DNA of 64,000 nt. Source: Gammaproteobacteria bacterium. GTDB lineage: Bacteria > Pseudomonadota > Gammaproteobacteria > Enterobacterales > Psychrobiaceae. Where the stretch lies: contig JABSRT010000004.1 in the NCBI GenBank assembly GCA_013214945.1, positions 1-64,000 of the forward strand, in the 5' to 3' direction. Shown here one piece after another: positions 8,214 to 25,399 of this stretch; position 1 is the stretch's first letter, and each line of letters opens with the position of its first letter. The notes below the pieces were generated by a model. The model did no database searches, was not told the origin of the DNA, and saw only the letters and a list, made by a program, of their open reading frames with translations. A program made the position numbers and the translations under genes.

Positions 8214-10073
8214 ATGGCAATATCGAAAATTATTTATCTGCTAAAGATCATCGGATCCTTAGTGCTAACTTTTACATTTTCTTCATTTACCTTTAGCCAA
8301 GGTGAACAAGCAGAACTGACATCAAAGTCTCGGGTTCAACAAACCCGATCGATTGACCAAATGCTCGATCAGGCAGAATTGAGCATCAATACCAACATGG
8401 TCGAAATGGAAAAGCTATTAACTGTCATTTCAAATATGGCTAAGCCACTTGATCAATTGCAGCGTCATCGTTTAATGCTGTTGCAAGCTAATCAACTGAT
8501 TTTAGAAACTGAATTTGAACAAGCCGATGCCATTCTCGAGCAGCTGATGCGGCAGCAACCCAATACTACCACCATGATTAGGGCCACCTATTTTCGGGCG
8601 CACATTGCTGATATATTAGAAAATTATGGTCAAGCCTTTTCATATTTACATCGTTTGGATCAATATCCGCGACTGGCAATTTCCCGTCATCAACAGTTTA
8701 AAACATTGACCCTCGCTACTAATTTATATAGTAAAGCAAATGCATATGCTCTGGCTTTAGATTTCGCTCGTCGGGCTTTGTCTATTGCTCGCCAGGGGAG
8801 CTCTGCTCAGATGATGTGTTATGCATTACGTTCAATAACCAACATTTATATAAACTCTAAAGAATACGATAAAGCCAAGAGTTATGCGTCGCAATCTATC
8901 GAGTTTTGTACTGATGCTAAAGAGCCAACAGCCTTAGCTAATTCTTATGTCAATCTGTCTTATTGGTATCGAGAGCACCAGGATTATACTCAGCAGCGAC
9001 AGCTACTGACGCAGGCCATTACACTGTATCAGCAGCAGCATTTTAAATTGAGTATTAACTTCGCTAGTTTGTTATTAGTTGAATCCTATATATTAGATAA
9101 TGACTTTGTTAATGCCGGCAAAATTATGACTAACGTCTTTAGTGACGTAGAGCAATTAAATGTGCTGAGTGAGTTGATGTTAGGTTATCGACTGAAAGCG
9201 ATGTTGTTTGAACACTCAGGGGATTGGCCACAAGCGATGGTCTATTTTAAAAAATTCTTAGCCGCAGCATCGGATGTGAATGGTAACAGCAGCAAGCTTA
9301 ATCAAGCTTACTTACAAATGCGTTTTGACAATAAAATCAGTCAGCAATCTAAAGTTATTAATCAAATTGAGCATAATAATATTAAGCTGATGATCAAAAT
9401 TGAGGGGCTAACCAATATTTTAATCGTCGTTTGTGCATTACTCGTTTTATCAATATCATTTTATTGCTTTACTTTTTATCGACGAAGTAAAACGATGACA
9501 ACGGTCGAGCGCAGCAATTTTGATGAGTTGACTCAACTGTATAATGCTGATTACGGCTTTAGTTTAGCTAAAACTATGCTTGAAAATAGTGAGAGTAGCG
9601 AGCTACCTTTTGGGGTTGTGTGCATTAATATAGATTTCATGAGCGCGGTTAACAACAGCTTTAGTCATGACTTTGGTGATATTTTATTGCAAGCATTTGC
9701 CAGTAAAATTAAATGTTTAGTCAGTGATGACGGCATTGTTATTCGCCATAGCGGTGACTCTTTTATTGCCTGTACCCGTAGCTTAGATACTGAACAACTG
9801 ACCGACTTGATTATAAAAATTCATCAATGCCTCGATGGCATAATGATCGATCGACAAAAGATTATTGTCAGTTGCTCGATTGGTTGGACATTGGAGCACG
9901 GCGAGCAGTATTCAAATGTCGATCAAGAGTTATCCCTGTTAATCGACCACGCTACTGAGGCGCTTGAGCAAGCCAAATTTAGTGGCCGAAATCAATGGCT
10001 GCGTTATCAGCCAGCGAAATCGAATGAGCCTTTTACTGAACTTAATATACGCCGTATTAGTGATAGTTTTTAG
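8214..10073 (+). CDS. TPR-repeat membrane protein with degenerate GGDEF domain
   Basis: This 619-residue protein has an N-terminal signal or anchor, a helical TPR-like region (about 40-390, periplasmic by topology), one transmembrane helix (about 398-422) and a cytoplasmic GGDEF-type domain (about 430-610). The signature loop reads S513-G-D-S-F517 instead of GGDEF. The fourth position, the catalytic acid, is serine, so cyclase activity is doubtful and a sensory or scaffold role is likelier. It converges on lapD 29 bp away. The family of TPR-GGDEF proteins is common in Alteromonadales. The start ATG has only a weak ribosome site. Confidence 0.82.
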   Translation: MAISKIIYLLKIIGSLVLTFTFSSFTFSQGEQAELTSKSRVQQTRSIDQMLDQAELSINTNMVEMEKLLTVISNMAKPLDQLQRHRLMLLQANQLILETEFEQADAILEQLMRQQPNTTTMIRATYFRAHIADILENYGQAFSYLHRLDQYPRLAISRHQQFKTLTLATNLYSKANAYALALDFARRALSIARQGSSAQMMCYALRSITNIYINSKEYDKAKSYASQSIEFCTDAKEPTALANSYVNLSYWYREHQDYTQQRQLLTQAITLYQQQHFKLSINFASLLLVESYILDNDFVNAGKIMTNVFSDVEQLNVLSELMLGYRLKAMLFEHSGDWPQAMVYFKKFLAAASDVNGNSSKLNQAYLQMRFDNKISQQSKVINQIEHNNIKLMIKIEGLTNILIVVCALLVLSISFYCFTFYRRSKTMTTVERSNFDELTQLYNADYGFSLAKTMLENSESSELPFGVVCINIDFMSAVNNSFSHDFGDILLQAFASKIKCLVSDDGIVIRHSGDSFIACTRSLDTEQLTDLIIKIHQCLDGIMIDRQKIIVSCSIGWTLEHGEQYSNVDQELSLLIDHATEALEQAKFSGRNQWLRYQPAKSNEPFTELNIRRISDSF

Positions 10074-10102: not shown

Positions 10103-12037
10103 TTATACCGCTATCGTGCTAATGTCTTGCGGTGGTGCAATAAAACCTTGAATGCCATCAACCCGCAAGCTTTGAAAATTAATCAGTTGGTCGCTGTCTT
10201 CGATTGCTGTTGCAATGACTTCAATATTTAACCCTTTTAGCACATTGATTAACGCGCGACACAGTTCATTGTTATGCTCAGATCTTTCGTAGAAAGCAAA
10301 AGCTTGATCCAATTTTACGTAATGTGGTTTTAATTGTTGCAGATAAGTCAGTGAGTCCATTTGCCGGCCACAATGGTCGATGCCAAATTTAGCGCCGTTA
10401 TCTCTAATCACTTCACATAAAATTTGACATTGATCCAAGCTACTGTTGACTGCCGATTCTGGTAACTCAAAATGAAGAGCATGTGCTTGAGGCAACTTTC
10501 TTAAAAATTTAGCGAGCCATTGATGAAACTGTGGGCTGTTAATACTGTCATGGGTTAAATTAATGGCTAAAGGTTCGTAGCACATTTTCACCACGTCTTG
10601 TTGCACTATTATTTCTAATAAACACTGATCTAGGTTATGACCTAACGAAAACAATTCAATATAGGGCACAAATTGGCTAGCACTTATGCGTTCACCATCG
10701 ATATTTAAGTGGCAGTATATTTCACGTTGAATGACTTCGTTAGAGTCGATATGGGAAATAGGTTGCCATTGTAATAAAAATTGTTTTTGACTAATAGCGG
10801 TGACCAATATTTCTCGCCATTGTTCTTTGCTATATTTTTGTTGCTGGTGCTGCGCATCGAACCAATGGCTAATTCGGTGTTCTTGAATTGCTTGCTGCAG
10901 TGCGTTGTCTGATTGAGATAAAATATCAGTCAAGGTTGTGCCAAGCGCTCGTTCGCTAACCCCCAGTGCAAATCCCTGATTGGGTTCGCAGCCCGCTTTT
11001 GACATTTCTTGATTAATTAGACGTATTAGTGACTGCAGATAAGTCTCTAGTTGATGGCGATCGCCTTTGGTGACTAAGAAAGCAAACTCGGTATTGGCAA
11101 TTCGAGCAATGACACAATCGGCTTGCACTAGCAATTCGCTTTGCAGCCGTTTTGATAATACTTTAATCGTTTCATCGCGCACCTGATAGCCATATTTACT
11201 ATGAATTTCATCTAGCCAATCAAATTTAGCGAGGATCAGTCCGCCATCCCCAGGATCTGCTAACCAACTGGTTATTTGGCCTGAAAGGTGCTGTCTGTTT
11301 GGCAACCCAGAAACCCTGTCGGTTAAATTGATCAGTTTCAATTTATTAACTTCATCGTCTAAGGTAACAAACACGTTTTTGAGTTGATCTGATATGGTAT
11401 TAATTGCCGTGACGACCTCTTTTAGCTCCGTGGTTTTTGGCATGATTAATTGTTGGGTAAATTTTTGCTTAGCGATTGCTTTGGCGTATTCACTAATACG
11501 ATATAGCGGCATTAATATTTGTTTTAATCTGACATGTAATATCACTATCACCAGCACCAGTAATATCGCGAGTACGACTAAGGCCATGCTCATAATACGC
11601 CATAGCTCTTGATAAGCTAAGGCTGGGTGGGCCTCAACTTTTAGCGTTGCCAGTTGAACTTGTCCCGAGCTTATCGTTATTGTTTTCGTCAGATCACCAA
11701 ATAATTCAAGCGCACTGAACCATTGCGGCACACCGTGTATAGTTACTGAGTTGCGCCAGATTTGTTGCTGATTATCGGTCAGCCAAGTCAAGGTCACTTG
11801 GCGATAAAAGCCCCCTTCGGAAATCACTTTAATTAATTTTGTCGCACCGACTTGATCTCCTGTTTCTAAATGAGGTTGTAAAATTAGGCCTAATGATACA
11901 CTGGTATTGTTGAGATCCAGTGTCATCTGGTTATTCATAAAATCACGGGTTTGGCTAAATTGAAAAAAGACTAAGCAGAGCATCACTAATAACATCAAGC
12001 CAAGCAGCAAGGAATAAATTTGTTTAAATAAGGTCAT
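10103..12037 (-). CDS. lapD: LapD-like c-di-GMP receptor controlling adhesin release
   Basis: This 644-residue inner-membrane protein has the LapD layout: first transmembrane helix (about 7-28), periplasmic LapD/MoxY-type domain (about 29-150), second helix (about 150-170), HAMP, then degenerate GGDEF and EAL domains. The GGDEF loop reads N315-T-E-F and the EAL signature reads E439-I-Y, so both activities should be lost while c-di-GMP binding can remain. In Pseudomonas, LapD bound to c-di-GMP sequesters the protease LapG and keeps LapA on the surface. The length matches LapD (about 650). It follows the secretion genes on the same strand after a 146-bp gap. No lapG lies beside it, which is unusual. 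Confidence 0.88.
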   Translation of the reverse strand: MTLFKQIYSLLLGLMLLVMLCLVFFQFSQTRDFMNNQMTLDLNNTSVSLGLILQPHLETGDQVGATKLIKVISEGGFYRQVTLTWLTDNQQQIWRNSVTIHGVPQWFSALELFGDLTKTITISSGQVQLATLKVEAHPALAYQELWRIMSMALVVLAILLVLVIVILHVRLKQILMPLYRISEYAKAIAKQKFTQQLIMPKTTELKEVVTAINTISDQLKNVFVTLDDEVNKLKLINLTDRVSGLPNRQHLSGQITSWLADPGDGGLILAKFDWLDEIHSKYGYQVRDETIKVLSKRLQSELLVQADCVIARIANTEFAFLVTKGDRHQLETYLQSLIRLINQEMSKAGCEPNQGFALGVSERALGTTLTDILSQSDNALQQAIQEHRISHWFDAQHQQQKYSKEQWREILVTAISQKQFLLQWQPISHIDSNEVIQREIYCHLNIDGERISASQFVPYIELFSLGHNLDQCLLEIIVQQDVVKMCYEPLAINLTHDSINSPQFHQWLAKFLRKLPQAHALHFELPESAVNSSLDQCQILCEVIRDNGAKFGIDHCGRQMDSLTYLQQLKPHYVKLDQAFAFYERSEHNNELCRALINVLKGLNIEVIATAIEDSDQLINFQSLRVDGIQGFIAPPQDISTIAV

Positions 12038-12183
12038 GGGGCTAGTGCTCCAGTTCTTGCTGGTGCGAATTTGTGAACATTAGCAGCACCATTGGGTATT
12101 GATCTATACTGGCGGAATTAACCATTGTAATAACTACCTTTTATCTGATGGAACTTGAGTCGAATATGAGTACGCCGCGGTTA

Positions 12184-12807
12184 TTAATACTCTATTTGGT
12201 CAACGGAATAAATTGTCCAAATCATTTGGTCAACCTGCGCTGTTTTGCTCAGTTGCGCGACAATACGTCGATTAATCCGGTGATCTTTATCGGTATCTCC
12301 GTAAGCTTTGAGGCGCTCAAAGCCATAACCTATGGTTGATATTTGCAGCGGTTCAATATCAAAGTCATTAATTAAGACCGTTGCCAGTGCTTGTGCACGT
12401 TGCTGTGACAGCCGCTTATTTTCTGCCGCCAAGCCGACTTTGCTAGTATGTGCTTCGATTAACACTTTGTTATCGGGATCGTCGGTTAAGAACTTGGCAA
12501 CTTGCTCTATTTGTTGGTAATCATCGCTGGGAATAATGGCGGAGTGATTAGCAAACTTTATATCTAGGGTTAAACGCTGGTTAGTTGCTTGACTATTGCT
12601 ACAACCAAGATTATTAATCTGGGCACCAAGCATTGTTTCAATGCATTTGTCACGAGCTCCAATCACACCATCGTGGTCAAGATCACTGAGTTCTTGTAGT
12701 TGCTCGATGTTATCCATATTCGCTAATTTTAGATCGGCACAGGCTGAGGTCACTAGCACTGTTGCGCCAATGATTAATGCTTGGACCTGTTGTGAAAACT
12801 GATTCAT
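12184..12807 (-). CDS. OmpA-family lipoprotein of the adhesin operon
   Basis: This 207-residue outer-membrane lipoprotein has a signal peptide ending in the lipobox VTSAC, a calcium-binding-like motif (DLDHDGVIGARDKC) and a C-terminal OmpA-like peptidoglycan-binding domain (about residues 80-190, motifs HTSKVG, LSQQRAQAL, GYGFERLKA, INRRI). It overlaps the end of the TolC-like gene by four bases and is the last gene of the tightly spaced secretion operon. OmpA-type proteins often accompany type I secretion systems for giant adhesins. Here it may anchor the outer-membrane channel to the wall, which is inference. Confidence 0.87.
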   Translation of the reverse strand: MNQFSQQVQALIIGATVLVTSACADLKLANMDNIEQLQELSDLDHDGVIGARDKCIETMLGAQINNLGCSNSQATNQRLTLDIKFANHSAIIPSDDYQQIEQVAKFLTDDPDNKVLIEAHTSKVGLAAENKRLSQQRAQALATVLINDFDIEPLQISTIGYGFERLKAYGDTDKDHRINRRIVAQLSKTAQVDQMIWTIYSVDQIEY

Positions 12808-14192
12808 TGGACATTTCCTCGGTGGTAATTATGCTCTCCTTGCCAAGTGCTGGATCGAGTAATCCGAAATGAATCGAGCAAGACTCCTGTGGCGTTGAGC
12901 AAGCGATATCTGGCATCGAGCTCACTAAACTGGCTTGCTAAGTAATCTTGACGTGCTTGAAATAATTCATTTTCGGTATCGAGTAAATCAAGCAGGCTGC
13001 GTTGGCCGAGATTAAATTGTTGTTCGTAATAGCGCTGAGTCTCCTTGGCTGAGATCACATGTTGCTTAATGAAATTGAGCTGTGAGCCCAACATTTCATA
13101 AGCATTCCAAGCCAGTTCAAAGCCTTCGGTTACTTGACGATGCGCTCGAATATTAATTTCATTAGCTTGGGTTATTTTATAGGCGGCGTCGCGTTCTTGC
13201 GCGCGAGTTTTACCGCCAGCGTAGAGGTTATAATTAAGCCTTATCATAGCGGTGAAGTCATTGTCATGGCCGCCAACCCCTGAGCCATCTTCACCACGGG
13301 TATCATTATTTGTATTGGCGCTCAACTCAAAGCTAAGTTGTGGGTAATAATCGGCGTTAATTACCTTTTTATACGACTGTGCGGCGTTAATATCTTGCGC
13401 AGCTGATCTAATGACTAGGTGGTTTTCCTGTGCTTGGATAAGGCCGGCATCTAAACTGGTTGGCAACATATCGGCATCTGGAACCGGAATGATTAAGTCA
13501 TCGGCCGCGGTATTAGTTAGGCGTTTAAACTGGCTGCCGGCATCGTTAAAATTATTACGGGCTGCAACATTATTAGACTGAGCGCGGGCTAAGCGACCTG
13601 ACACTTGAGATAAGTCAGCGACGCTGCCAAAACCCGAATCAGTACGTTCTTTTATTTGCTCATAAATAGCACGGTGATCCGAGACGTTTTTGTCTGACAG
13701 ACTTAATAACTGCTCGGTCTTTAAATAATTTAGATAAGATTTAGCAACCGACAATGCTAAATCTTCAGCGGTACTTAGCAGCGTTAATTGCTCGGCATAT
13801 GCCTCGAACATCGTGCGCTCAACATCGTTACTGGTCCGCATGCCATCAAATAATACTTGTCGTAAGCTCAAGCCAAATTCACCACGCATTAAGTCGGTGG
13901 TATCGTCACCGGCTCCTGAGGCGCTACGACGACTGCTCGGGGTATTGGTATATTCATAACCATAACCAGCGTTGAGATCGATCGTGGGTAAATAGGCCGC
14001 TGAGGCGATATCTACTTGTTGTTCGAAACTTTTGAATTTAGCGAAAGATTGCCGAATATCAGGGTGGGTATCTAATGCCAGCGCGACCACTTGCTCTAGG
14101 CTTTGTGCCGCGACATTGGTGGTCAATAGGGTGCTTAAGCACCAAAGACCCACTGATAATTTACTCGGCTTTAAAAATATTCTATCGTCCAT
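12804..14192 (-). CDS. lapE: TolC-family outer-membrane channel of type I secretion
   Basis: This 462-residue outer-membrane channel is for adhesin export. It has a signal peptide (cleavage near NVAAQ-S), two OEP repeats of the TolC fold (about 35-230 and 245-440), a periodic helical tunnel, and the typical C-terminal motif QARQDYLASQFSELDARYRLL. It lies 43 bp after the membrane-fusion gene and overlaps the OmpA-like gene. LapE of the Lap system is the closest functional counterpart. Confidence 0.9.
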   Translation of the reverse strand: MDDRIFLKPSKLSVGLWCLSTLLTTNVAAQSLEQVVALALDTHPDIRQSFAKFKSFEQQVDIASAAYLPTIDLNAGYGYEYTNTPSSRRSASGAGDDTTDLMRGEFGLSLRQVLFDGMRTSNDVERTMFEAYAEQLTLLSTAEDLALSVAKSYLNYLKTEQLLSLSDKNVSDHRAIYEQIKERTDSGFGSVADLSQVSGRLARAQSNNVAARNNFNDAGSQFKRLTNTAADDLIIPVPDADMLPTSLDAGLIQAQENHLVIRSAAQDINAAQSYKKVINADYYPQLSFELSANTNNDTRGEDGSGVGGHDNDFTAMIRLNYNLYAGGKTRAQERDAAYKITQANEINIRAHRQVTEGFELAWNAYEMLGSQLNFIKQHVISAKETQRYYEQQFNLGQRSLLDLLDTENELFQARQDYLASQFSELDARYRLLNATGVLLDSFRITRSSTWQGEHNYHRGNVQ

Positions 14193-14235
14193 GATCGCTC
14201 CATCTGTCTTACTGTTTATTCAAATTTATGGCGTT

Positions 14236-15609
14236 TTATCGTTCGCGTAGTGCGGCTTGTTTCGCGCGTAATATTGGGTTTAAGATGTATTCTAAAATAG
14301 TTCGTTTACCGGTGATTACATCAACACTGGTCATCATGCCCGGTATAATGCTCATGTCTTCATTGGCTTTATTTTTAATGCTCGAGGCATCTGTTCTGAC
14401 CCGAATTATATAATAACTAGTCCCATCATCGTCTTGGGTGGTGTCGGCACTGATGTGCTCAACCTCGCCTGTCAGGCCGCCATACCGGGCAAAGTCATAA
14501 GCGGTTATTTTTACCACTGCTGGTAATCCTGGATAAATAAATCCGATATCCCGTGGTTTTATTTTTGCTTCAACTAATAACATATCATCGGTCGGTACTA
14601 TTTCAATGATCGTTTGCCCTGGCTGAATAACACCACCTAAGGTATTAATGTGGATTGTTTTGATGGTTCCGATGACTGGTGAAGTAATTAATGCTTTGGT
14701 TACTTTGTCTTTGACCCCGACCTGTGCTTCAGTGATCTTAGATAAACTACTTTGCAACTCATTAAGTTGAGCTCTGGCTTCGGTACGGTAGACTAAAACG
14801 GTGTCACGGCGTTGCAAGATACTTTCTTCGACGGATGCTTGCAGTTTAGGCTTTAACAAACGCACTGCGCTTAATTCCCCTCTAATATCATTAACACTGC
14901 GTTCGAGTTTAAGTAATTCAATTTTAGGGACAATATTTTTTTTAGCCAGCGGCCGAGTTAATGCTAATTCTTTTGAAGCTAAATTGTAGCTGGTTTTCAA
15001 GGTTCTTATTTTAGACGATAATTCGGTTACTTCTTGAATTCTTTGTAAGATTTGTCTTTCTTGAATCGCAACTTGATTAATTATGCTATCTAGCCGGCCA
15101 TCGTATTCGTTCTGTTGACGCTTGACCAACGCTGGAGATTTTAGGTTGAGATCTTCAGGATAGACCAATGTTTTCTTGGTAATGGCTATCTGTAACTGCC
15201 AATCACTTGCCTCGCCAACGAGAATGCTTGAAAGCTCAGCTCGTAGTCGAATTATGTTCGCTCTTAAACTATCTACTTCTTGTTTTTGTTGGGCAAAATC
15301 AGATCGGAAACGGGTGTCGTCAATGCGAGCTAAGGGTTGCCCTTGTTTGACCTGCATGCCTTCTTTAACAAATAATTTTTGTAAAACCCCGCCGTCTAAA
15401 CTTTGAATAATTTGAATTTGAGAGGAGGGAATTATTTTACCCTGTCCGGTTGTTACCTGTTCCAGCGACGAAAAATAAGACCAAGTTATAAAACTTAAAA
15501 TAAGCGCAGCTAGCGTCCAAATGGTTAAGCGATGCAAGCTCGGTACTTCGGTCAGTAAAGCGCCGTAGACATCGTCGGCCATGGAGATATCTTGTTGGGT
15601 TACTTTCAT
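14236..15609 (-). CDS. lapC: HlyD/LapC-type membrane-fusion protein
   Basis: This 457-residue periplasmic adaptor links the ABC transporter to the TolC-like channel. One N-terminal membrane helix (about 30-48) is followed by a lipoyl-like half motif (SLDGGVLQKLFVKEGMQVKQ), long coiled-coil helices (about 95-280), and a C-terminal beta-barrel with the HlyD signature (GLPAVVKITAYDFARYGGL). Its start codon overlaps the lapB stop by four bases, so translation is coupled. Length and domain order are normal for the type I secretion HlyD family. Confidence 0.93.
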   Translation of the reverse strand: MKVTQQDISMADDVYGALLTEVPSLHRLTIWTLAALILSFITWSYFSSLEQVTTGQGKIIPSSQIQIIQSLDGGVLQKLFVKEGMQVKQGQPLARIDDTRFRSDFAQQKQEVDSLRANIIRLRAELSSILVGEASDWQLQIAITKKTLVYPEDLNLKSPALVKRQQNEYDGRLDSIINQVAIQERQILQRIQEVTELSSKIRTLKTSYNLASKELALTRPLAKKNIVPKIELLKLERSVNDIRGELSAVRLLKPKLQASVEESILQRRDTVLVYRTEARAQLNELQSSLSKITEAQVGVKDKVTKALITSPVIGTIKTIHINTLGGVIQPGQTIIEIVPTDDMLLVEAKIKPRDIGFIYPGLPAVVKITAYDFARYGGLTGEVEHISADTTQDDDGTSYYIIRVRTDASSIKNKANEDMSIIPGMMTSVDVITGKRTILEYILNPILRAKQAALRER

Positions 15610-17780
15610 GAAGCCACCTCGGTATTGAGCTGGCCATTTTTCAACTGCTGTAATACCGCATCTTTTGAGCCATCAGCAATTATTCGTCCCCGGTCTAACA
15701 CAATAACCCGGTCGACTAAGCTCAGTAGGTGCATTTTATGGGTAATTAATATCATGGTGCGATCTTTGACCGTGGCTGAAATTGAGTTGATAAATAGTTT
15801 TTCAGCGCGGGCGTCTAGACTTGCGGTTGGCTCGTCTAACAATAAAATAGCGGGGTCATTCAGAGTCGCGCGGGCCAAAGCAATTGATTGACGTTGACCA
15901 CGAGATAATGCATTGCCGCCTTCACCCACTTGTTGATCTAACCCTTGGCTGTCCTGATCGGTAAATAAACTGACACCTGACAATTGCACCGCACGGATCA
16001 GTTGATACTCGGTGACTTGGCGGGTACCGAATAATATATTATCGCGAATAGAGCCGTGAAATAAGGTGATATCTTGCGGTAAATAACCAAAATTTTGGCG
16101 TAAGTTACTTGGATGTATTTGCTGGTGGTTGAGGCCATCAAAGCGTAAATTGCCTGCGGTAGGTTGATAAAGTCCCAGTAATACCTTGGCTAGCGTCGTT
16201 TTTCCTGAGCCATTACGGCCGATGATCGCAATTTTTTCGCCAGGCTTGATTGCGATAGACATCGGATACAATGCTGGTTTTTCACACTCAGGATAGGTAA
16301 AGCCTAAATGTTCGGCATCTATTCGCCCTGCTAGTTTGCTGCGGCCGACTAAATGCGCTTTGTTTTCAAACTCACCTTGTTGATCCATTAAACTATTAAG
16401 TTGTCTGAGCGCGCTAATTGTTTGATTTGAACGAGTCAGTAATGAGGCTAGTTTTGCCATCGGCGAAATCGCTCGGCTCGACAGCATAACTGCGGCAATA
16501 ATACCGCCCATCGAGATCAGATTTTCAGAGACGCGATATACCCCCATAACGACAACCCCAATTACCGTGACTTGCACAATAAAGCTGGCAACGTTAGTGA
16601 CTGAGTTAGTAATTACTTTCGACTTGAGTTGCCAATTTGAAGTATGGCCGATCATTTGCTGCCAGGCGTTTTGAATCACACCTTCGGCGCCGTTGGCTTT
16701 GATCGATTCAAGCGAGCTTAAGCACTCAATTAAATGGCCATGGCGCAAGCCAGAAAATTTATTGGTTTCTTCAATCGCTGCCCGCAACTTAGGTTGCATT
16801 AAAAAAGTGTAACCAAGAATGATCACCGTGGCGACAATAGGGAACAGCACTAAATCGCCGGCGACGAGATAAATAATGAACATAAATAAGGCGGCAAAGG
16901 GTAAATCGACCAAGGCGGTAATAGTCGCGGAAGACAAAAAGTCACGGACGCTATCAAATTCACTTAATTGGCGCGCCATTCCGCCAATACTCGGGGCGCG
17001 TTTTTCCAGAGGAATGCCAATTACTTTTGAAAATAGCTTTGCTGACACCTGAATATCCACTTTTTTTCCAGCGACATCAATCAGGTAACCTCTAAGTTGT
17101 TTTAAAATAAAATCAAAAAGATAGGCAATACCGGCTCCGATAGCGAGCACCCACAATGACTCAAATGCGAGATTAGGCACTACCTTGTCGTAAATATTCA
17201 TTACAAATAACGGTGAAACCAAGGCAAAAATATTAATCAAAATTGAAGCAATAATTACATCGCGGTAAATAGAGGCTGATTGCTTAATGTGTTGCAATAA
17301 CCAATGCTCAGAAGCATCGTTGACATGAACATCAAAATCTAGATCACCACGATATTGCTGTTTGATCAAGAAGGCATAACCAGCATAGCTAGATTCTAGC
17401 TGAGCAAGGGTTAATAGCTCTTGGCCGCCAGTTTCTGGTAAAGATACCGTCGCTTGATTGGTTTTATTGTTGATTTGGTGAAGGATGCAGGCTTTTTGAC
17501 CCTTTAGTAATAAAATGCAGGGCAATAACATTGCGGGAAATTCATTGAGCCCTTTACGGGTTAATTTTGCGCTTAGTCCTGCTCTTGCTGCAGCTTGGGG
17601 TAATAGCTCGGGCGATAAAATATTGCCATTAAAGGGCAAGCCAGCGGCGAGCGCTTGAGCGGAGCAGGGGTTACCAAAATGCTCACTTAATAACACGATG
17701 CTATCAAGCAATGGATCATCACTAACCTGTTGGGCAGGATTAATTGTCCACTGATCTAATTTTGCAGATGAAGTAAGCAC
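15606..17780 (-). CDS. lapB: type I secretion ABC transporter, LapB-like
   Basis: This 724-residue fused permease and ATPase exports the giant adhesin. The N-terminus (about 25-140) is a C39-peptidase-like domain without an obvious catalytic set, as in LapB and HlyB, so it should bind rather than cleave substrate. Six membrane helices (about 165-445) follow. The ATPase domain has Walker A (IGRNGSGKTTL), signature (LSRGQRQSIALAR), Walker B (ILLLDEPTASLD) and H-loop (ITHK). The start is GTG, preceded by an AAGGA-like site 12 bases upstream. It lies 176 bp after the adhesin stop codon. Confidence 0.93.
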   Translation of the reverse strand: MLTSSAKLDQWTINPAQQVSDDPLLDSIVLLSEHFGNPCSAQALAAGLPFNGNILSPELLPQAAARAGLSAKLTRKGLNEFPAMLLPCILLLKGQKACILHQINNKTNQATVSLPETGGQELLTLAQLESSYAGYAFLIKQQYRGDLDFDVHVNDASEHWLLQHIKQSASIYRDVIIASILINIFALVSPLFVMNIYDKVVPNLAFESLWVLAIGAGIAYLFDFILKQLRGYLIDVAGKKVDIQVSAKLFSKVIGIPLEKRAPSIGGMARQLSEFDSVRDFLSSATITALVDLPFAALFMFIIYLVAGDLVLFPIVATVIILGYTFLMQPKLRAAIEETNKFSGLRHGHLIECLSSLESIKANGAEGVIQNAWQQMIGHTSNWQLKSKVITNSVTNVASFIVQVTVIGVVVMGVYRVSENLISMGGIIAAVMLSSRAISPMAKLASLLTRSNQTISALRQLNSLMDQQGEFENKAHLVGRSKLAGRIDAEHLGFTYPECEKPALYPMSIAIKPGEKIAIIGRNGSGKTTLAKVLLGLYQPTAGNLRFDGLNHQQIHPSNLRQNFGYLPQDITLFHGSIRDNILFGTRQVTEYQLIRAVQLSGVSLFTDQDSQGLDQQVGEGGNALSRGQRQSIALARATLNDPAILLLDEPTASLDARAEKLFINSISATVKDRTMILITHKMHLLSLVDRVIVLDRGRIIADGSKDAVLQQLKNGQLNTEVAS

Positions 17781-17956
17781 TGAAAATATAGTTCCTTTAT
17801 ATAATCATGACGTTGGCACAAGAGAATAGCAACCAAACTAGCATATTTATTGAGCTAAGTAATAAATTCTTTTATTGCGCGCAGAGATAACTTTGTTACG
17901 TTGCGGTGATTATCGCAGTGGCTAGCTAGTATTTGCCACTGCGAAAATCCTTATCC

Positions 17957-20900
17957 TTAGTCGATAAAGCCATTGCTAAGATCGTCATCAAGGCCAATCA
18001 ATCGGTCGTCGGCCGCGGAGCTGATGATTAAAGGCCCATCTGAATGATTGAGTAAACCGTTAATTAAGCTGGAACCGTCGCTAGCATATTGGCTTAAATC
18101 AACGTCTTCTAATACCATCACTTGGGCGATTGGTGAGCTTTCATCACCAGCATGGATTGCGAGCGTGGTATCACCGTTGTCAAAATTTATCGCTAAATAT
18201 AGGGTTAAGCTCCCGTCATTATTAACCGATAATACGTCGCTTAAGTCGAGTTTATCACCTTGTGAGGCATCAAAGTCGCTGATATAGGCGGTGGTTGGGC
18301 TCGTCGTTGAACTGGTCTCACCTAACCATTTGAATATTTCTGCATTGTTGCTGCTTGCAGGGGATTGATCAATTTTTATGTCGGCATATTCGGCTAACAT
18401 GTCGCCCACATGAGTCATTGCGTCGTTTTCATCAATCGCTTGTCGGCCCGTTTGGTCAAAGATAATCGCCGCTAACTCTTGCTCGCTAATCGTTGCTAGG
18501 TCGAAATTGGTATCTGAAAAAGCGTTATGCATGCCTTGGGTTATCACGATGCCATCGTAAGCGTCGTTATTATCATCTAATGATTGCAACAGCACTGCCA
18601 TATTTTCTACATATTGATCAGTCATGTCTTGGCGGTTTATTTGGGCAATGTCTTGTAAAAACACCTGACTATCGTTAATTTTAGCCATGTCGACATCACC
18701 TAGTTCGACTTTGCCAATGTTAAAGCTAACGATGTCACCCGCGTTAAATTCAAAGCCGCCTTGCGCTGTGGTTAGGCCGCTAATGCCCGATGAGGTGGTA
18801 TATTCAAGCCCGGCAATTATCCCATCGATAACGGTTGCTGTACTGGTGGTGCCGCCAGTGGTTAAGAGGTATTTTTGTGCGGCCCAATCGTAGAGGTAAG
18901 TGGTATTGTCACCGCCAAAAATTATTTTTTCGGCACTGGTTATTTTTAGATCAACATTATTCGTTGCGGTAGCTGTTAGGTGAGTTAAGTGAATGCTTTG
19001 AATGCCATTAGCAACAGTGACAATTGAACTGCCACCTAAACCAAAATCAAAATCAGTCGATGACATTTGTGAAAGTATTAAGGTGTCTTGACCATCTCCG
19101 AGGTTGATAGCTTTTGTTGCTTTGGCAAATTGACCATCAATAGTAAGGGTATCGTCTCCGGTGCCCATGTCGATTTCACCAGCGGTAGTACTGCTCGTAG
19201 TGAGGTTTAGTCGGTCTATTATCAAAGTATCATCGCCAGCTCCCATCTTGATAATTGCATGGCTTCTTATTTCATGCGCGATAAGTTGATCGTTGCCAGC
19301 GCCAGTATCAAGCTTGACCTTGGAACCGATCGAGGTGCCAACGTTGACCGTATCATCACCAGTACCCATTTGGATCTGAGCTTTGTTGGTTATATGGGTG
19401 GCAATATTAATGCTGTCATTACCACTGCCAGTATTTATTTTGATATCGCCGCTGATTAGGCCGCCTAGGGAAATACTGTCGTTGCCAGCGCCTGTATCAA
19501 CTTGGGCGTCACCTTTTATTGATTTTCCGACCGTAATAGTGTCATTGCCAGCGCCAGTTTCAACGACGGCGGTACCTTCAATATCATAATTACCAATTAC
19601 CTCAACGGTGTCGTCTGCGCCACCAGAGATAAATGATTCGTTTTTAAGGTCTCGTTGTTCACTCCACGTTTGGCTGATATCTATGGTACCTGTGGCTGTA
19701 ATACCGCCAATAGTAAGGGTTAATGCTTCAATGTTTTGATCGTTGTCATCTGTTATGGCTAGATGAGCGGTAAAACTTGAGATGCCTGCTGGCACGGTAA
19801 TAGTGCCGTTGTTATTGAGGGTAACCCCGTCACTAAAAGTAAATTGGGCGTAATCAGCTGCCGTGGTTTGCAGGTTGGTTATGTCGATATTGTAGGTTTG
19901 TGCGGTGGCAGCGATCCCATTCATTGTAATATCAAAAATTAATTCACCGCCATTACCGGTGGCAGCATCGCTAATAGTTGTCACTTGCTGGGCCAACTCA
20001 TTTAGCGAAAACTCGATGGTAAAGGTTAATTGCAACGGGGTTGATTTATCGCCATCACGGTCAACAATGACCACTTGCAGCTGGTCGGAGTGATCGACGC
20101 GGGTCGAATCATTAGTTTCTACTCGGTAAGTATAAGTTCCTGTATCAAAGTTAACGCTGTAGATACCATCTAAACCAGCGAACTCTTGAGTTGGGTTGTC
20201 TTGATCGTAGGCATAACTGACACCATTTATGGTAATAGTATCGACATGGCCTCCATCGGCGCCAAAATCGACTAAGCTATCGGCGTTATCATCAATTAAA
20301 AGGTTACCGCCAGTTGTGGTTAAAATATCATCTAATACCGCATCGGTTAAATCAACAAAGTCCTCAACATGAACCAAAGGGCGATATACCTGGCCTTGGT
20401 CACCTTGAGCATTAAGGGCGCCATCTGTCACTCTGGCAATACTTTCTTGATAAGAAATATTCGAATTGTTAATGCTATAAGTAAATAGCGCATCGACTGG
20501 GCCGCTCTCAAGAAAACTTTGCCAGTGGGTCAGGGTGTTGGTGTAGTTACTGGCGTTAACGTTCTCGCCACCATCACCAAAGTAATAAATTGCATCTTGG
20601 GTCGCCGGTTGATAACCGCTATTGGTGCCATAGACTTCGCCCATTACTGTGTTGAGGCCTAGCGCAATGTCGGTCGAACCACCGCGGCTAATATCTAAGT
20701 TTTCAGGATAATCCGAAATCCAGCCGGTGGTTGTCGTATCTCTACTGCTGTTTGGGTGCCTAAATATTACAATATTTATGTTCACATCACTAAACTCTTG
20801 ATATTGAGTAATTAGCGCCTTAACTGCGTCGACCGACGCTGTCATGTCTGCATCGGACATGCTGCCTGATGCGTCAAGAATAAAGGTTAAGTTGGAGCTG

Positions 20901-23900
20901 ATTGTGTCAATTTCTATCGTTACCGTTTGATCTTCGCCGATCACAGGACTGTCATCAATGACTTTAACGGTCAAATTTGCGCTAGTAATAGAGTTGTCGT
21001 TATGGCTGAGCTGATAGCTAAATGTTTCGTTAAACACATCTTGACCATTAGCAATCGAATGATTGACCGGGTTATTAAGGGTGTAGGTGTAGTGGCCAAA
21101 GTTGGCTGAGTTAACATCAGCATTGACGGTAAGGGTATTACCTTGCAATGTGGTGACTGTAAGCACACCGTTTACTGGGCTAATCCCGTTTATTGACTCG
21201 ATGGCAGTTACTGAATTTATACCACTAAATAATACGCCACTGACGCTGGTATTGTGCGCAGCGTCGCTAGCTAAAGTGCCATTAATTAATCCTGCTTCAT
21301 AAGCGCTTTGTTCTGGATTTATGGTAATACTGGCAGTGGCTGGACTTTGATCGATTAAGCCACTGTTGTCTCGCGCGCTATATTGAAAGTTGGTATCGCC
21401 GTTCCAATTATTGTCAGGGATAAAATAGAAGGTTAGGCTTTGATTGGTCGCAGGGTAATATATGGGAGCGTTACTGTCATCGGTTAGCCTAACTAATGTG
21501 GTAAGGCTGGTATCTGTGTATAAAGTGCCATTAGCTGGCAGGCTGCTCAGCGTGAAACTGATCACTGTGCCATCAATATCTTCCCCAGTTAAGTTTATCG
21601 CTACGGTAGTATTCATTTCACCTATTTGGGAGGTACTATTGGTTAACGGGGCATCATCACTGCCATTGACCGTAAATGTTAATTGGGTGGTTGACTGATC
21701 GCCATCACTGTCTTGCAAGGTATAGCTGAAGATGTCGGTTGGCTGATCGCCGGCACTTAACTGCTGGGCCGCTTGGGTTAAGACATAGTTGTAATTACCA
21801 TTGCCGTCGATCGTTAGGGTGCCGTAGGTACCGTTTATTGCGGTATTAACCCCGGCGGTGATAGCACTATTGGTGGTACCAGTGCTAACGCCGATAAGCT
21901 GCGTGATATCGACTCCTAATTGATCTTGGGTCGCATTGGTGCCATCAATGACATTGCCGGTGATATTGGTTTCATTTTCATTAACGGTACGGGCATCGGC
22001 GATGGCTTGTGGCGCCGTATCAGTGGTTAAAACACTAAGATAGTCACTGCTGCTAAGCCCTAAAACGTCGGTGACGTTAAGCGTTATATTATCTATGACA
22101 TCGCCATTGCTGTGATCTTTAGCGCCACTGACCTGATAGCTGTAACTCACGATGCCCGTATTGGCATCATAGTCATTAATAATCAGGCTGCCGTTTTCAT
22201 CGCTGGTGGCGACAGTAACCGGGTTAGCGCTTAAATCGTTTAACTGAGCAAGCGTAATAGTGGTGCCATCAAGAGTAATGCTAGCTAGGCCCGCATCAGC
22301 GTTGATGGAAAAACTACCTGATATGGTCGCTGATGCATCTTCGCTAATGCTGCGATCACCCGCGGCGCTGCCATTGTTATCATTTACATTGATAATTGGT
22401 GGCGCGTCGGTATGACCGTTAATGGTAATGATGACTTGCGCGGTGGTGATATCGCCATCACTGTCTTTTATCTGATAACTAAAGGTCTCAGTTAATGGCG
22501 ATGAGTTGTCGTTTAAAGCGTTCACAGATGCATTGTTATTATCAACTACATACTGATACGTGCCATCAGCATTGGCGGTAAACGTGCCATATTGAGCGGT
22601 CGTACTGGTCCAGTTACTAAACTGGACGGGGCCATCGAATGCGCTGTCATTGCTCAATGCTTGCTGTAAGCCTGTCGAGGCCGTACCGTCTTCGGTTAAG
22701 CTGTGAGTTTCGTTTTGGCCGACAGGAGTCGTGTCTGCAATCAAAATACTAAGATAGTCACTGCTGCTAAGCCCTAAAACATCGGTGACGTTAAGCGTTA
22801 TATTATCTATGACATCGCCATTGCTGTGATCTTTAGCGCCACTGACCTGATAGCTGTAACTCACGATGCCCGTATTGGCATCATAGTCATTAATAATCAG
22901 GCTGCCGTTTTCATCGCTGGTGGCGACAGTAACCGGGTTAGCGCTTAAATCGTTTAACTGAGCAAGCGTAATAGTGGTGCCATCAAGAGTAATGCTAGCT
23001 AGGCCCGCATCAGCGTTGATGGAAAAACTACCTGATATGGTCGCTGATGCATCTTCGCTAATGCTGCGATCACCCGCGGCGCTGCCATTGTTATCATTTA
23101 CATTGATAATTGGTGGCGCGTCGGTATGACCGTTAATGGTAATGATGACTTGCGCGGTGGTGATATCGCCATCACTGTCTTTTATCTGATAACTAAAGGT
23201 CTCAGTTAATGGCGATGAGTTGTCGTTTAAAGCGTTCACAGATGCATTGTTATTATCAACTACATACTGATACGTGCCATCAGCATTGGCGGTAAACGTG
23301 CCATATTGAGCGGTCGTACTGGTCCAGTTACTAAACTGGACGGGGCCATCGAATGCGCTGTCATTGCTCAATGCTTGCTGTAAGCCGGTTGAGGCAGTAC
23401 CGTTTTCAGTTAAGCTATGTGCTTCGTTTTGGCCGATTGGAGTCGTGTCAGCTATTAAAATACTCAGATAGTCACTGCTGCTAAGCCCTAATACATCGGT
23501 GACGCTAAGCGATATATTGTCAATCACATCACCATTGCTGTGATCTTTAGCGCCACTGACCTGATACCTGTAACTCACCATGCCCGTATTGGCGTTGTAG
23601 CCATTAATAATGAGCGTACCGTTTTCTTCGCTGGTGGTGATTGTCACGGGGTTGGCGCTTAAATCGGTTAACTGAACAAGGGTAATAGTGGTGCCATCAA
23701 GGGTAATGCTAGCCAGTCCTGCGTCCGCGCTGATAGTAAAGCTACCAGAGATGGCAGCAGAGGCATCTTCGCTAATGCTGCGATCACCCGCGGCGCTGCC
23801 ATTACTATCATCCACAATGATACTTGGTGGCGTGTCGGTATGACCGTTAATGGTAATGACAACTTGGGCGGTGGTGGTATCACCATCGCTATCATTTATC

Positions 23901-25399
23901 TGATAACTAAAGGTTTCAGTTAAAGGAGAAGAGTTGTCGTTTAAGGCATTTACCGATGCATTTTTATTATCAAGTACATACTGATAAGTGCCGTCGGCAT
24001 TGGCGGTAAACGTGCCGTATTGGGCCGTTGTGCTGGTCCAGTTATCAAACTGGACGGGGCCATCAAATGCGCTGTCATTGCTTAATGCTTGCTGTAAGCC
24101 TGTTGAGCTGTTTGCAGCGTCCTCGGTTAAGTTATGAGCTTCGTTTTGGCCGATAGGAGCCGTGTCTGTTATCAGAATATCAAGGCTGTCATTAGTGCTG
24201 GTGCCTTGGGTATCACTAACAATAATATTAATGTGGTCGATAACCTCGCCATTGCTGTGATCTTTAGCGTCGGTCACTTGGTAGCTATAAGTTACGACAC
24301 CGGTGCTGGCGTCATAACTAGTAATGATTAAAATGCCGTTTTCATCGGTAATAATAGTGACCGGACTGGTGGTTAACGCCTCAAGTTCAGCCACAGTGAT
24401 GCTGGTATTAGCGATAGTGACTTGCACTAAACCAGCTTGGGCGTCGATCGTAAAAGTGCCCTCGACAGGGGCTGTGGCATTTTCACTAATTGTGTTGTCG
24501 CCGGCCTCTGTAATATTAAGGTCGCTGACGTTAAGCGTTGGTCTGGGTTCATCAACCGCCGTGACGGTAATAGTGGCAGTGGCTGAACTGTTATCTATTT
24601 GGCCGTTGTTATCTTGGGCCCGATATTCGAAAGAGGTCGTGCCATTCCAATTACTGTCGGGTACAAAATAAAAATCAAGCGCTTGATCTGTTGCATCGTA
24701 GTTACTGCCAACAACGACTAAGGTTTCAAGTGATGCGTCAGTATAAAGTAGACCGTTGATGGGTAAGTTCGTTAATTGAAAGCTCGTTACTGCGCCGTCG
24801 CTGTCGCTACCCGTTAAGGAGATGATGATTGAATTAGCATCTTCAAGCCCGGTCGCTGACGTTGAATTGGTTGTTGGCGCGATATTGCCAGATGCTGCCA
24901 GAGTACTGCTAGTAGTAGATCCTTGCTGATCAAAAGCTAGCGTATTGGCCCCGACTGGCCCAACAGTATCATAACGAGCTTCGGCTAACGTTTCTGCTCC
25001 GGTCCGGTTGATGGTAATAAATCCTAGCCCTTCATTGCCCGCTTCATTGCCCGCTGCAGTATCCGGTAAATCAACCACGTCATCGCCAGATTCGATCAAT
25101 GCCTGAATATCAGCTATTTCAGCAAGTAAATCATTGGAAGGCTCTTGAGTTGAATTTGGATTCGGACTTGCTTCATCCATTGACTGTTCGGTCATTTGTT
25201 CTAGCGCGATGCCAGAAATAACCTGCTGCGTGCCATCTGCTAAAGCTAGGGTAATTTGGGCGTCATCGGCTATCACCACGGTGGCGCCTTGCCTTATTTG
25301 ATCGCCTAGATTGAGGCTTGGGCCAGTTGCATTGATAAGATTAGCTTGGCCAACCAAAGTAATGATCTGCGCATTTTGCGAGGCAATGAAAGTCTTCAT
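17957..25399 (-). CDS. giant LapA-like type I secreted adhesin
   Basis: This 2480-residue cell-surface adhesin is encoded directly before its own secretion system. Residues 1-70 form an N-terminal retention-module-like domain. T114-A-A-G117 matches the LapG cleavage consensus. Ig/VCBS-like domains follow, including three tandem 238-239-residue units (about 413-1127) and further cadherin-like domains. A von Willebrand A domain begins near 1500 with MIDAS motif D1509-A-S-G-S. A Calx-beta-like segment (about 1800-1900) precedes nine GxGxD-type repeats spaced mostly 21 residues (about 1926-2105). The acidic C-terminus should carry the secretion signal. The ATG at 25399 gives the conserved start of retention modules. 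Function as a c-di-GMP-gated biofilm adhesin is inferred from LapA. The name LapA is not applied because repeat content differs. Confidence 0.93.
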   Translation of the reverse strand: MKTFIASQNAQIITLVGQANLINATGPSLNLGDQIRQGATVVIADDAQITLALADGTQQVISGIALEQMTEQSMDEASPNPNSTQEPSNDLLAEIADIQALIESGDDVVDLPDTAAGNEAGNEGLGFITINRTGAETLAEARYDTVGPVGANTLAFDQQGSTTSSTLAASGNIAPTTNSTSATGLEDANSIIISLTGSDSDGAVTSFQLTNLPINGLLYTDASLETLVVVGSNYDATDQALDFYFVPDSNWNGTTSFEYRAQDNNGQIDNSSATATITVTAVDEPRPTLNVSDLNITEAGDNTISENATAPVEGTFTIDAQAGLVQVTIANTSITVAELEALTTSPVTIITDENGILIITSYDASTGVVTYSYQVTDAKDHSNGEVIDHINIIVSDTQGTSTNDSLDILITDTAPIGQNEAHNLTEDAANSSTGLQQALSNDSAFDGPVQFDNWTSTTAQYGTFTANADGTYQYVLDNKNASVNALNDNSSPLTETFSYQINDSDGDTTTAQVVITINGHTDTPPSIIVDDSNGSAAGDRSISEDASAAISGSFTISADAGLASITLDGTTITLVQLTDLSANPVTITTSEENGTLIINGYNANTGMVSYRYQVSGAKDHSNGDVIDNISLSVTDVLGLSSSDYLSILIADTTPIGQNEAHSLTENGTASTGLQQALSNDSAFDGPVQFSNWTSTTAQYGTFTANADGTYQYVVDNNNASVNALNDNSSPLTETFSYQIKDSDGDITTAQVIITINGHTDAPPIINVNDNNGSAAGDRSISEDASATISGSFSINADAGLASITLDGTTITLAQLNDLSANPVTVATSDENGSLIINDYDANTGIVSYSYQVSGAKDHSNGDVIDNITLNVTDVLGLSSSDYLSILIADTTPVGQNETHSLTEDGTASTGLQQALSNDSAFDGPVQFSNWTSTTAQYGTFTANADGTYQYVVDNNNASVNALNDNSSPLTETFSYQIKDSDGDITTAQVIITINGHTDAPPIINVNDNNGSAAGDRSISEDASATISGSFSINADAGLASITLDGTTITLAQLNDLSANPVTVATSDENGSLIINDYDANTGIVSYSYQVSGAKDHSNGDVIDNITLNVTDVLGLSSSDYLSVLTTDTAPQAIADARTVNENETNITGNVIDGTNATQDQLGVDITQLIGVSTGTTNSAITAGVNTAINGTYGTLTIDGNGNYNYVLTQAAQQLSAGDQPTDIFSYTLQDSDGDQSTTQLTFTVNGSDDAPLTNSTSQIGEMNTTVAINLTGEDIDGTVISFTLSSLPANGTLYTDTSLTTLVRLTDDSNAPIYYPATNQSLTFYFIPDNNWNGDTNFQYSARDNSGLIDQSPATASITINPEQSAYEAGLINGTLASDAAHNTSVSGVLFSGINSVTAIESINGISPVNGVLTVTTLQGNTLTVNADVNSANFGHYTYTLNNPVNHSIANGQDVFNETFSYQLSHNDNSITSANLTVKVIDDSPVIGEDQTVTIEIDTISSNLTFILDASGSMSDADMTASVDAVKALITQYQEFSDVNINIVIFRHPNSSRDTTTTGWISDYPENLDISRGGSTDIALGLNTVMGEVYGTNSGYQPATQDAIYYFGDGGENVNASNYTNTLTHWQSFLESGPVDALFTYSINNSNISYQESIARVTDGALNAQGDQGQVYRPLVHVEDFVDLTDAVLDDILTTTGGNLLIDDNADSLVDFGADGGHVDTITINGVSYAYDQDNPTQEFAGLDGIYSVNFDTGTYTYRVETNDSTRVDHSDQLQVVIVDRDGDKSTPLQLTFTIEFSLNELAQQVTTISDAATGNGGELIFDITMNGIAATAQTYNIDITNLQTTAADYAQFTFSDGVTLNNNGTITVPAGISSFTAHLAITDDNDQNIEALTLTIGGITATGTIDISQTWSEQRDLKNESFISGGADDTVEVIGNYDIEGTAVVETGAGNDTITVGKSIKGDAQVDTGAGNDSISLGGLISGDIKINTGSGNDSINIATHITNKAQIQMGTGDDTVNVGTSIGSKVKLDTGAGNDQLIAHEIRSHAIIKMGAGDDTLIIDRLNLTTSSTTAGEIDMGTGDDTLTIDGQFAKATKAINLGDGQDTLILSQMSSTDFDFGLGGSSIVTVANGIQSIHLTHLTATATNNVDLKITSAEKIIFGGDNTTYLYDWAAQKYLLTTGGTTSTATVIDGIIAGLEYTTSSGISGLTTAQGGFEFNAGDIVSFNIGKVELGDVDMAKINDSQVFLQDIAQINRQDMTDQYVENMAVLLQSLDDNNDAYDGIVITQGMHNAFSDTNFDLATISEQELAAIIFDQTGRQAIDENDAMTHVGDMLAEYADIKIDQSPASSNNAEIFKWLGETSSTTSPTTAYISDFDASQGDKLDLSDVLSVNNDGSLTLYLAINFDNGDTTLAIHAGDESSPIAQVMVLEDVDLSQYASDGSSLINGLLNHSDGPLIISSAADDRLIGLDDDLSNGFID
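22024..24165 (-). repeat. three tandem 714-717-bp coding repeats
   Basis: Three in-frame units of the adhesin lie at about 23452-24165 (oldest-looking), 22738-23451 and 22024-22737. The offset between matching bases of the last two is exactly 714 bp. Over about 600 bp (22067-22670 against 22781-23384) I see no difference by eye. The first unit differs at many third positions. This indicates recent duplication or gene conversion. Confidence 0.9.
25049..25060 (-). other. predicted LapG cleavage site codons (TAAG)
   Basis: Codons 114-117 read ACT GCA GCG GGC, that is Thr-Ala-Ala-Gly. LapG cuts between the two alanines of such a motif, about 110 residues from the N-terminus in Pseudomonas LapA, and the position here is nearly the same. 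Confidence 0.75.

Follow-up and report, generated by a model that had tools for sequence, protein, structure and literature searches.

Lap-type adhesin systems are controlled through a protease and its receptor: c-di-GMP-loaded LapD holds LapG, and a drop in c-di-GMP frees LapG to cut the adhesin at a TAAG site and release it, as outlined in two reports on Shewanella (PMC8938473, PMC4523816). The window analyzed here, a 64,000-nucleotide stretch of a gammaproteobacterial contig, carries an operon of this type, which an earlier sequence-only reading had described as a complete Lap adhesin circuit with LapG missing. The locus raises the question of what became of the protease, for which that reading had offered two answers, namely a lapG gene elsewhere or another protease doing the job.

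The operon and its adhesin

Open reading frames and family matches placed the parts of the operon collinearly on the minus strand of the window, in the order adhesin, ABC exporter, HlyD, TolC, OmpA-like protein and LapD; all operon positions given below are on this strand. The adhesin (17957..25399; 2480 aa) is a giant type I-secreted protein (TIGR01965), in which an N-terminal retention module (retention_LapA, NF033682; 65 bits versus a cut-off of 50) is followed by VCBS/cadherin-like repeats, a vWFA-like region and a C-terminal type I secretion target domain (TIGR03661). A dedicated exporter is encoded within the operon, consisting of an LssB-type ABC exporter (15606..17780; TIGR03375, 909 bits, cut-off 693), a periplasmic adaptor of the type I HlyD family (14236..15609; TIGR01843, 446 bits, cut-off 209) and a TolC-type outer membrane channel (12804..14192; TIGR01844, 325 bits, cut-off 225). 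The OmpA-like protein (12184..12807; 207 aa) is possibly a lipoprotein, judging by eye from Cys23 after TSA. The intact reading frame of lapD (10103..12037; 644 aa) encodes a single membrane protein with a periplasmic output domain (LapD_MoxY_N, PF16448; 116 bits, cut-off 25), HAMP, a degenerate GGDEF and EAL; its match to the NCBIfam LapD equivalog, 255.8 bits, lies under the strict cut-off of 1020. Coordinates and family matches thus confirmed the collinear arrangement described earlier, including the position of the adhesin TAAG at residue 114. A gene for a TPR-GGDEF protein was also observed on the plus strand (8214-10073), its end separated by 29 bases from that of lapD; its product is a possible source of c-di-GMP for the receptor.

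The substrate sites of the adhesin were then compared with those of LapG-bearing congeners, using the cleavage motif definition ([T/A/P]AAG) and the name "targeting helix" as given in PMC13090378. The consensus LapG cleavage motif is intact as TAAG at residues 114-117 (25049..25060; context DLPDTAAG), and LLAEIADIQALIESGDD, residues 91-107 (25079..25129), stands at the position of the targeting helix and is near identical to the segment in those congeners. Two retention modules were detected in the window's genome, one in this adhesin and one on contig C15, and both adhesins carry IQALIESGD..(D/V)DLP.TAAG, as do LapG-bearing congeners. A relaxed pattern for the cleavage segment matched 11 of 12 loci; the motif reads AASG in G001, and one of the G007 loci has TASG. 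The second adhesin (G000 C15:1-1813, locus L048), whose retention module has ATAAG, runs off the contig end.

Decay of lapG in its ancestral slot

When the whole genome to which the window belongs (4,699,491 bases in 59 contigs, completeness listed as 100%) was searched with the LapG family PF06035, zero matches were obtained. The same search detected lapG in all eight congeners, each of which had a LapD match adjoining the LapG match. Moreover, the LapG protein of the congener G003, used as a query against the window's genome, gave nothing real, its best match scoring 13.8 bits (E 0.08) with stops inside. The absence of LapG from the window therefore holds, by PF06035, for the entire genome, and the genome-wide check for LapG-type proteases that the earlier reading had proposed came out negative.

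In all eight congeners and in all five Colwellia-type loci, the ompA-like gene is followed by lapG and then by lapD, lapG being directly upstream of lapD and within a few bases of it. (The Colwellia-type loci were fetched by LapD similarity; five were used, a sixth being the G008 contig again.) In the window, the slot that is filled by an intact lapG in 13/13 compared loci is a 146-bp gap (12038..12183). With a profile built from 13 LapG proteins, this gap scored 48.3, a value reached by none of 10,000 dinucleotide shuffles (mean 21.8, sd 3.2, maximum 46.9) and by none of 1740 other 146-nt tiles of the window (maximum 36.7). The matching segment, KVVITMVNSASIDQYPMVLLMF (12075..12140), aligns with LapG KMRITMVKAVTLDQYHMVVAYY (10 of 22 residues), and it sits in the correct strand, place and order for lapG. 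Pro replaces the His of QYHM, which, given the C-H-D family and the conservation of this column, we take to be the His of the catalytic triad, and an in-frame TAA (12143-12141) stands immediately before the segment.

A second piece, CTGGAGCACTAG (12042..12053), matched the 3' end of LapG (..LEF-stop in Colwellia-type loci) by junction comparison, at the same distance to the lapD start. The bases before lapD read CTGGAG, 3 bases, a stop, 4 bases and ATGACC, with the spacing of Colwellia-type lapG 3' ends. This piece was probably kept because it resembles, and may be, the ribosome-binding site of lapD. The remnant also holds a 27-codon frame on the minus strand (ATG at 12125, TAG at 12042, 4 bases before the lapD start), which may keep translational coupling into lapD.

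Given that a remnant occupies the ancestral slot, lapG was lost rather than relocated, having decayed in place. A lapG gene elsewhere, the first of the two answers offered earlier, is refuted for the present assembly by both negative genome searches and the remnant; "missing" remains correct for an intact gene, but what stands at 12038-12183 is a decayed remnant.

The distribution of the two genes was examined among 394 genomes of the order. LapD_MoxY_N was found in 188 and LapG in 188, with both in 186. LapG occurred without LapD in G149 and G160, both weak, and LapD without LapG in the window's genome and G018 only. G018 was not accepted as another Lap system lacking LapG: its PF16448 match is weak (26.2 bits, cut-off 25), the output-domain pattern is absent, and inspection by eye of 11 kb of surroundings revealed unrelated frames, among which neither an adhesin nor an exporter was recognized. 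The operon in the window is therefore the only clear example of a Lap operon without LapG in this 394-genome sample. Second, divergent LapD genes were seen near polysaccharide-type genes in two congeners (G002:C16:111325-112316 and G004:C54:29801-30169; L033, L036), that of G002 beside a short LapG match (a 124-aa frame) and that of G004 without an adjoining one. Short frames with a LapD output domain (192 and 184 aa) were found near oppositely oriented LapG matches in G020:C66 and G044:C31, possibly LapD-like proteins without a cytoplasmic module.

Divergence of the LapD receptor

In the window's LapD, the LapG-anchoring Trp of the GWxQ loop is replaced by Gln at residue 126 (11660..11662), giving GQVQ. 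Trp was present in 12/12 aligned LapG-bearing relatives, and also in 25/25 other distinct output-domain segments found on both strands with a pattern permitting any residue here. This Trp (W125 in P. fluorescens LapD, W126 in L. pneumophila CdgS9) is described as the main LapG anchor, and W125E is reported to abolish LapG binding and function (PMC3032553, PMC4359373). Its replacement next to a lost lapG provides evolutionary support for those mutant and crystal results. The parts of a complete Lap circuit are thus present, as the sequence-only reading had it, but functionally the circuit is not complete, since LapD is without its LapG-anchoring Trp.

A second replacement was found at residue 443 (10709..10711), where His stands in place of the Arg aligned with P. 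fluorescens R450, an Arg present in 12/12 relatives. R450 is described as lying at the c-di-GMP-binding centre of LapD (PMC3032553); H443 points to a weaker c-di-GMP input more than to re-tuning of the switch. For E262, the salt-bridge partner in P. fluorescens LapD, the alignment has a gap. Overall, the 12 LapG-bearing relatives share 239 invariant positions, and the window's LapD differs at 32 of these (periplasmic 10, TM/HAMP 8, EAL 8, GGDEF 2, elsewhere 4). Counted in the same way, C. piezophila departs at 29 positions, mainly in EAL and GGDEF, and the other congeners and Colwellia/Pseudocolwellia at 0 to 8. A model predicted from 7 sequences displayed an ordered fold (mean pLDDT 76, pTM 0.40), so that the LapD fold has probably been retained.

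Because synonymous sites were saturated (pS about 0.8), formal dN/dS was unusable, and relative rates were employed instead, counting window-only against G003-only changes with Colwellia L025 as the outgroup. LapD as a whole gave 109:45 (p 2.5e-7), with 28:3 in the periplasmic domain (p 7e-6), 22:6 in TM/HAMP (p 0.0025), 36:19 in EAL and 16:10, not significant, in GGDEF. The corresponding counts were 32:36 for HlyD, 44:41 for TolC and 24:30 for OmpA; ABC was mildly faster too (47:27, p 0.02). A second outgroup, Pseudocolwellia L030, produced the same pattern, with TolC at 52:30 (p 0.015). By these counts, the rate shift is greatest in the LapG-facing part of LapD and in the segment transmitting to that part. 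Relative to G003, pN/pS of LapD was 0.29, with synonymous sites saturated, and that of ABC, HlyD and TolC, which are intact, conserved and constrained, was 0.13 to 0.27. LapD is open and under constraint, and therefore may still do something.

G003 was chosen as nearest relative mainly because its exporter is so similar to that of the window (84% identity for ABC), the exporter tree being weakly supported near the window, where one node has a support of 56, and not uniting the congeners. In this tree (L031-L040, L025-L030), the operons of G002 and G005-G007 were nearer C. piezophila, with G003, G004 and the window apart. The split suggests that operons have been exchanged or that the genus has two or more operon lineages, the nodes near the window being weak.

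No acceleration was detected in either adhesin over the docking helix and TAAG (57 columns), where changes numbered 5:4, 7:5, 6:4 and 6:4. The unaccelerated substrate segment is the only result that fits poorly with a simple loss of lapG. It could reflect a loss that is recent on this scale, another (structural) role of the segment, cutting by something else, or too few residues (57) to tell.

Possible fates of the release arm and comparison with known systems

A third answer, absent from the earlier reading, fits these data best, namely that the release arm was lost and that LapD is drifting from LapG binding. We consider it fairly probable that the window represents a natural lapG-loss lineage, in which the operon is otherwise conserved, LapD is uncoupled from LapG and the adhesin is probably permanently retained. 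In this lineage, lapG was lost from a bpf/lap-type operon, leaving a short remnant where it stood, after which LapD, its frame kept, its docking Trp gone and its periplasmic and HAMP regions changing faster, would have drifted from LapG binding. The exporter would still secrete the adhesin, and the retention module would still plug the TolC channel. Without LapG, the adhesin would stay surface-bound irrespective of c-di-GMP, as in lapG deletion strains made in the laboratory, and gating of release by LapD would have ended, with nothing left to hold or free. With the protease a fragment and the main grip of the sensor lost, cells of this marine bacterium are therefore probably unable to detach by the normal route.

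Reports on Shewanella mutants bear on the retention step. Deletion of bpfG in S. putrefaciens is reported to leave biofilm close to that of the wild type and to bring BpfA back to the surface in a crp background (PMC8938473), and a catalytic-site mutant of BpfG in S. oneidensis is reported to form more biofilm under anoxic conditions (PMC11455927). However, the S. oneidensis bpfG deletion is described as having reduced biofilm, with BpfA absent from the supernatant (PMC4523816), and therefore loss of LapG need not raise surface adhesin; because of this contrary outcome, we infer, rather than assert, constitutive retention.

The second of the earlier answers, that a different periplasmic protease has replaced LapG and cuts TAAG, with the LapD output face altered to hold the new partner, would account for a TAAG and preceding helix that are intact in two adhesins and not accelerated. 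It would likewise suit a LapD that is open and constrained and whose changes are concentrated in the periplasmic and HAMP regions, GGDEF being not significantly faster. However, no candidate emerged among the transglutaminase-core (PF01841) proteins, the family examined, and H443 at the c-di-GMP-binding centre suggests a weaker input, not re-tuning; we regard replacement as unlikely. A rewiring of LapD after lapG loss, such that its fast-evolving face holds a new protease cutting TAAG in both adhesins, would make this a Lap switch with its protease replaced, and appears quite unlikely. Two PF01841 proteins are encoded in the window's genome (C14, 671 aa; C36, 702 aa). By eye, each is a large membrane protein of another type with multiple helices, and C36 has no Cys at the usual place; they were set aside for now as LapG substitutes. 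Neither is a special candidate, given their large size and membrane character and the presence of the family in 7/8 LapG-bearing congeners.

Alternatively, the whole operon may be on its way out, with lapG lost first, LapD decaying and the adhesin perhaps no longer made or exported. The departures of LapD at 32 of 239 invariant positions point in this direction, as does a report that BpfG is needed for BpfA export in S. oneidensis (PMC4523816). Against this, ABC, HlyD and TolC are intact and constrained, the 2480-aa adhesin frame is open with its processing segment conserved, and LapD evolves below the neutral rate, which together make wholesale decay improbable. Finally, a lapG present in the cell but absent from the assembly, or moved past recognition, is very improbable: repeats did break the assembly of 59 contigs, since the second adhesin is cut by a contig end, but the ancestral slot holds a remnant, the LapD anchor Trp is gone, the genome is recorded as 100% complete and both types of search were negative.

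Loss of lapG followed by drift of LapD remains the preferred account. LapD-LapG pairing is nearly exceptionless (of 394 genomes, 186 have both, and LapD stands alone only here and in one weak hit). The lineage amounts to a natural experiment, in which the protease and the binding Trp of the receptor are gone and the substrate sites are still present. It allows tests of whether the targeting helix and TAAG serve any purpose besides LapG cleavage and whether LapD has functions beyond holding LapG, and it offers a view of life with a non-releasable adhesin outside the laboratory. A literature search of partial coverage, confined to titles and abstracts, found no natural loss of lapG with LapD kept.

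Among known systems, Shewanella Bpf (bpfA, aggA-C, SO4321, bpfG, bpfD) is described as having the same seven-gene plan (PMC4523816, PMC8938473), with bpfG between the OmpA-like gene and bpfD, where the window has a remnant. The Lap system of P. fluorescens (LapA, LapBCE, LapG, LapD) has in common with the window a retention-module adhesin with TAAG, a type I exporter and the LapD domains, whereas the window is without LapG and has Gln at the W125 position and His at the R450 position. The Dvh system of Desulfovibrio vulgaris, as presented in PMC13090378, is also without the LapD Trp anchor, but it retains DvhG, a LapG-type protease, and has a receptor with a different architecture (dCache, HD-GYP). 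Engineered lapG or bpfG deletion strains likewise combine adhesin and receptor without the protease (PMC8938473); in contrast, the loss in the window is natural and fixed in one genome of the species, and the receptor has changed since. Because LapG and the LapG-docking Trp, two defining features, are both lacking, the operon is filed as a variant, descended from Lap/Bpf after loss of the release arm.
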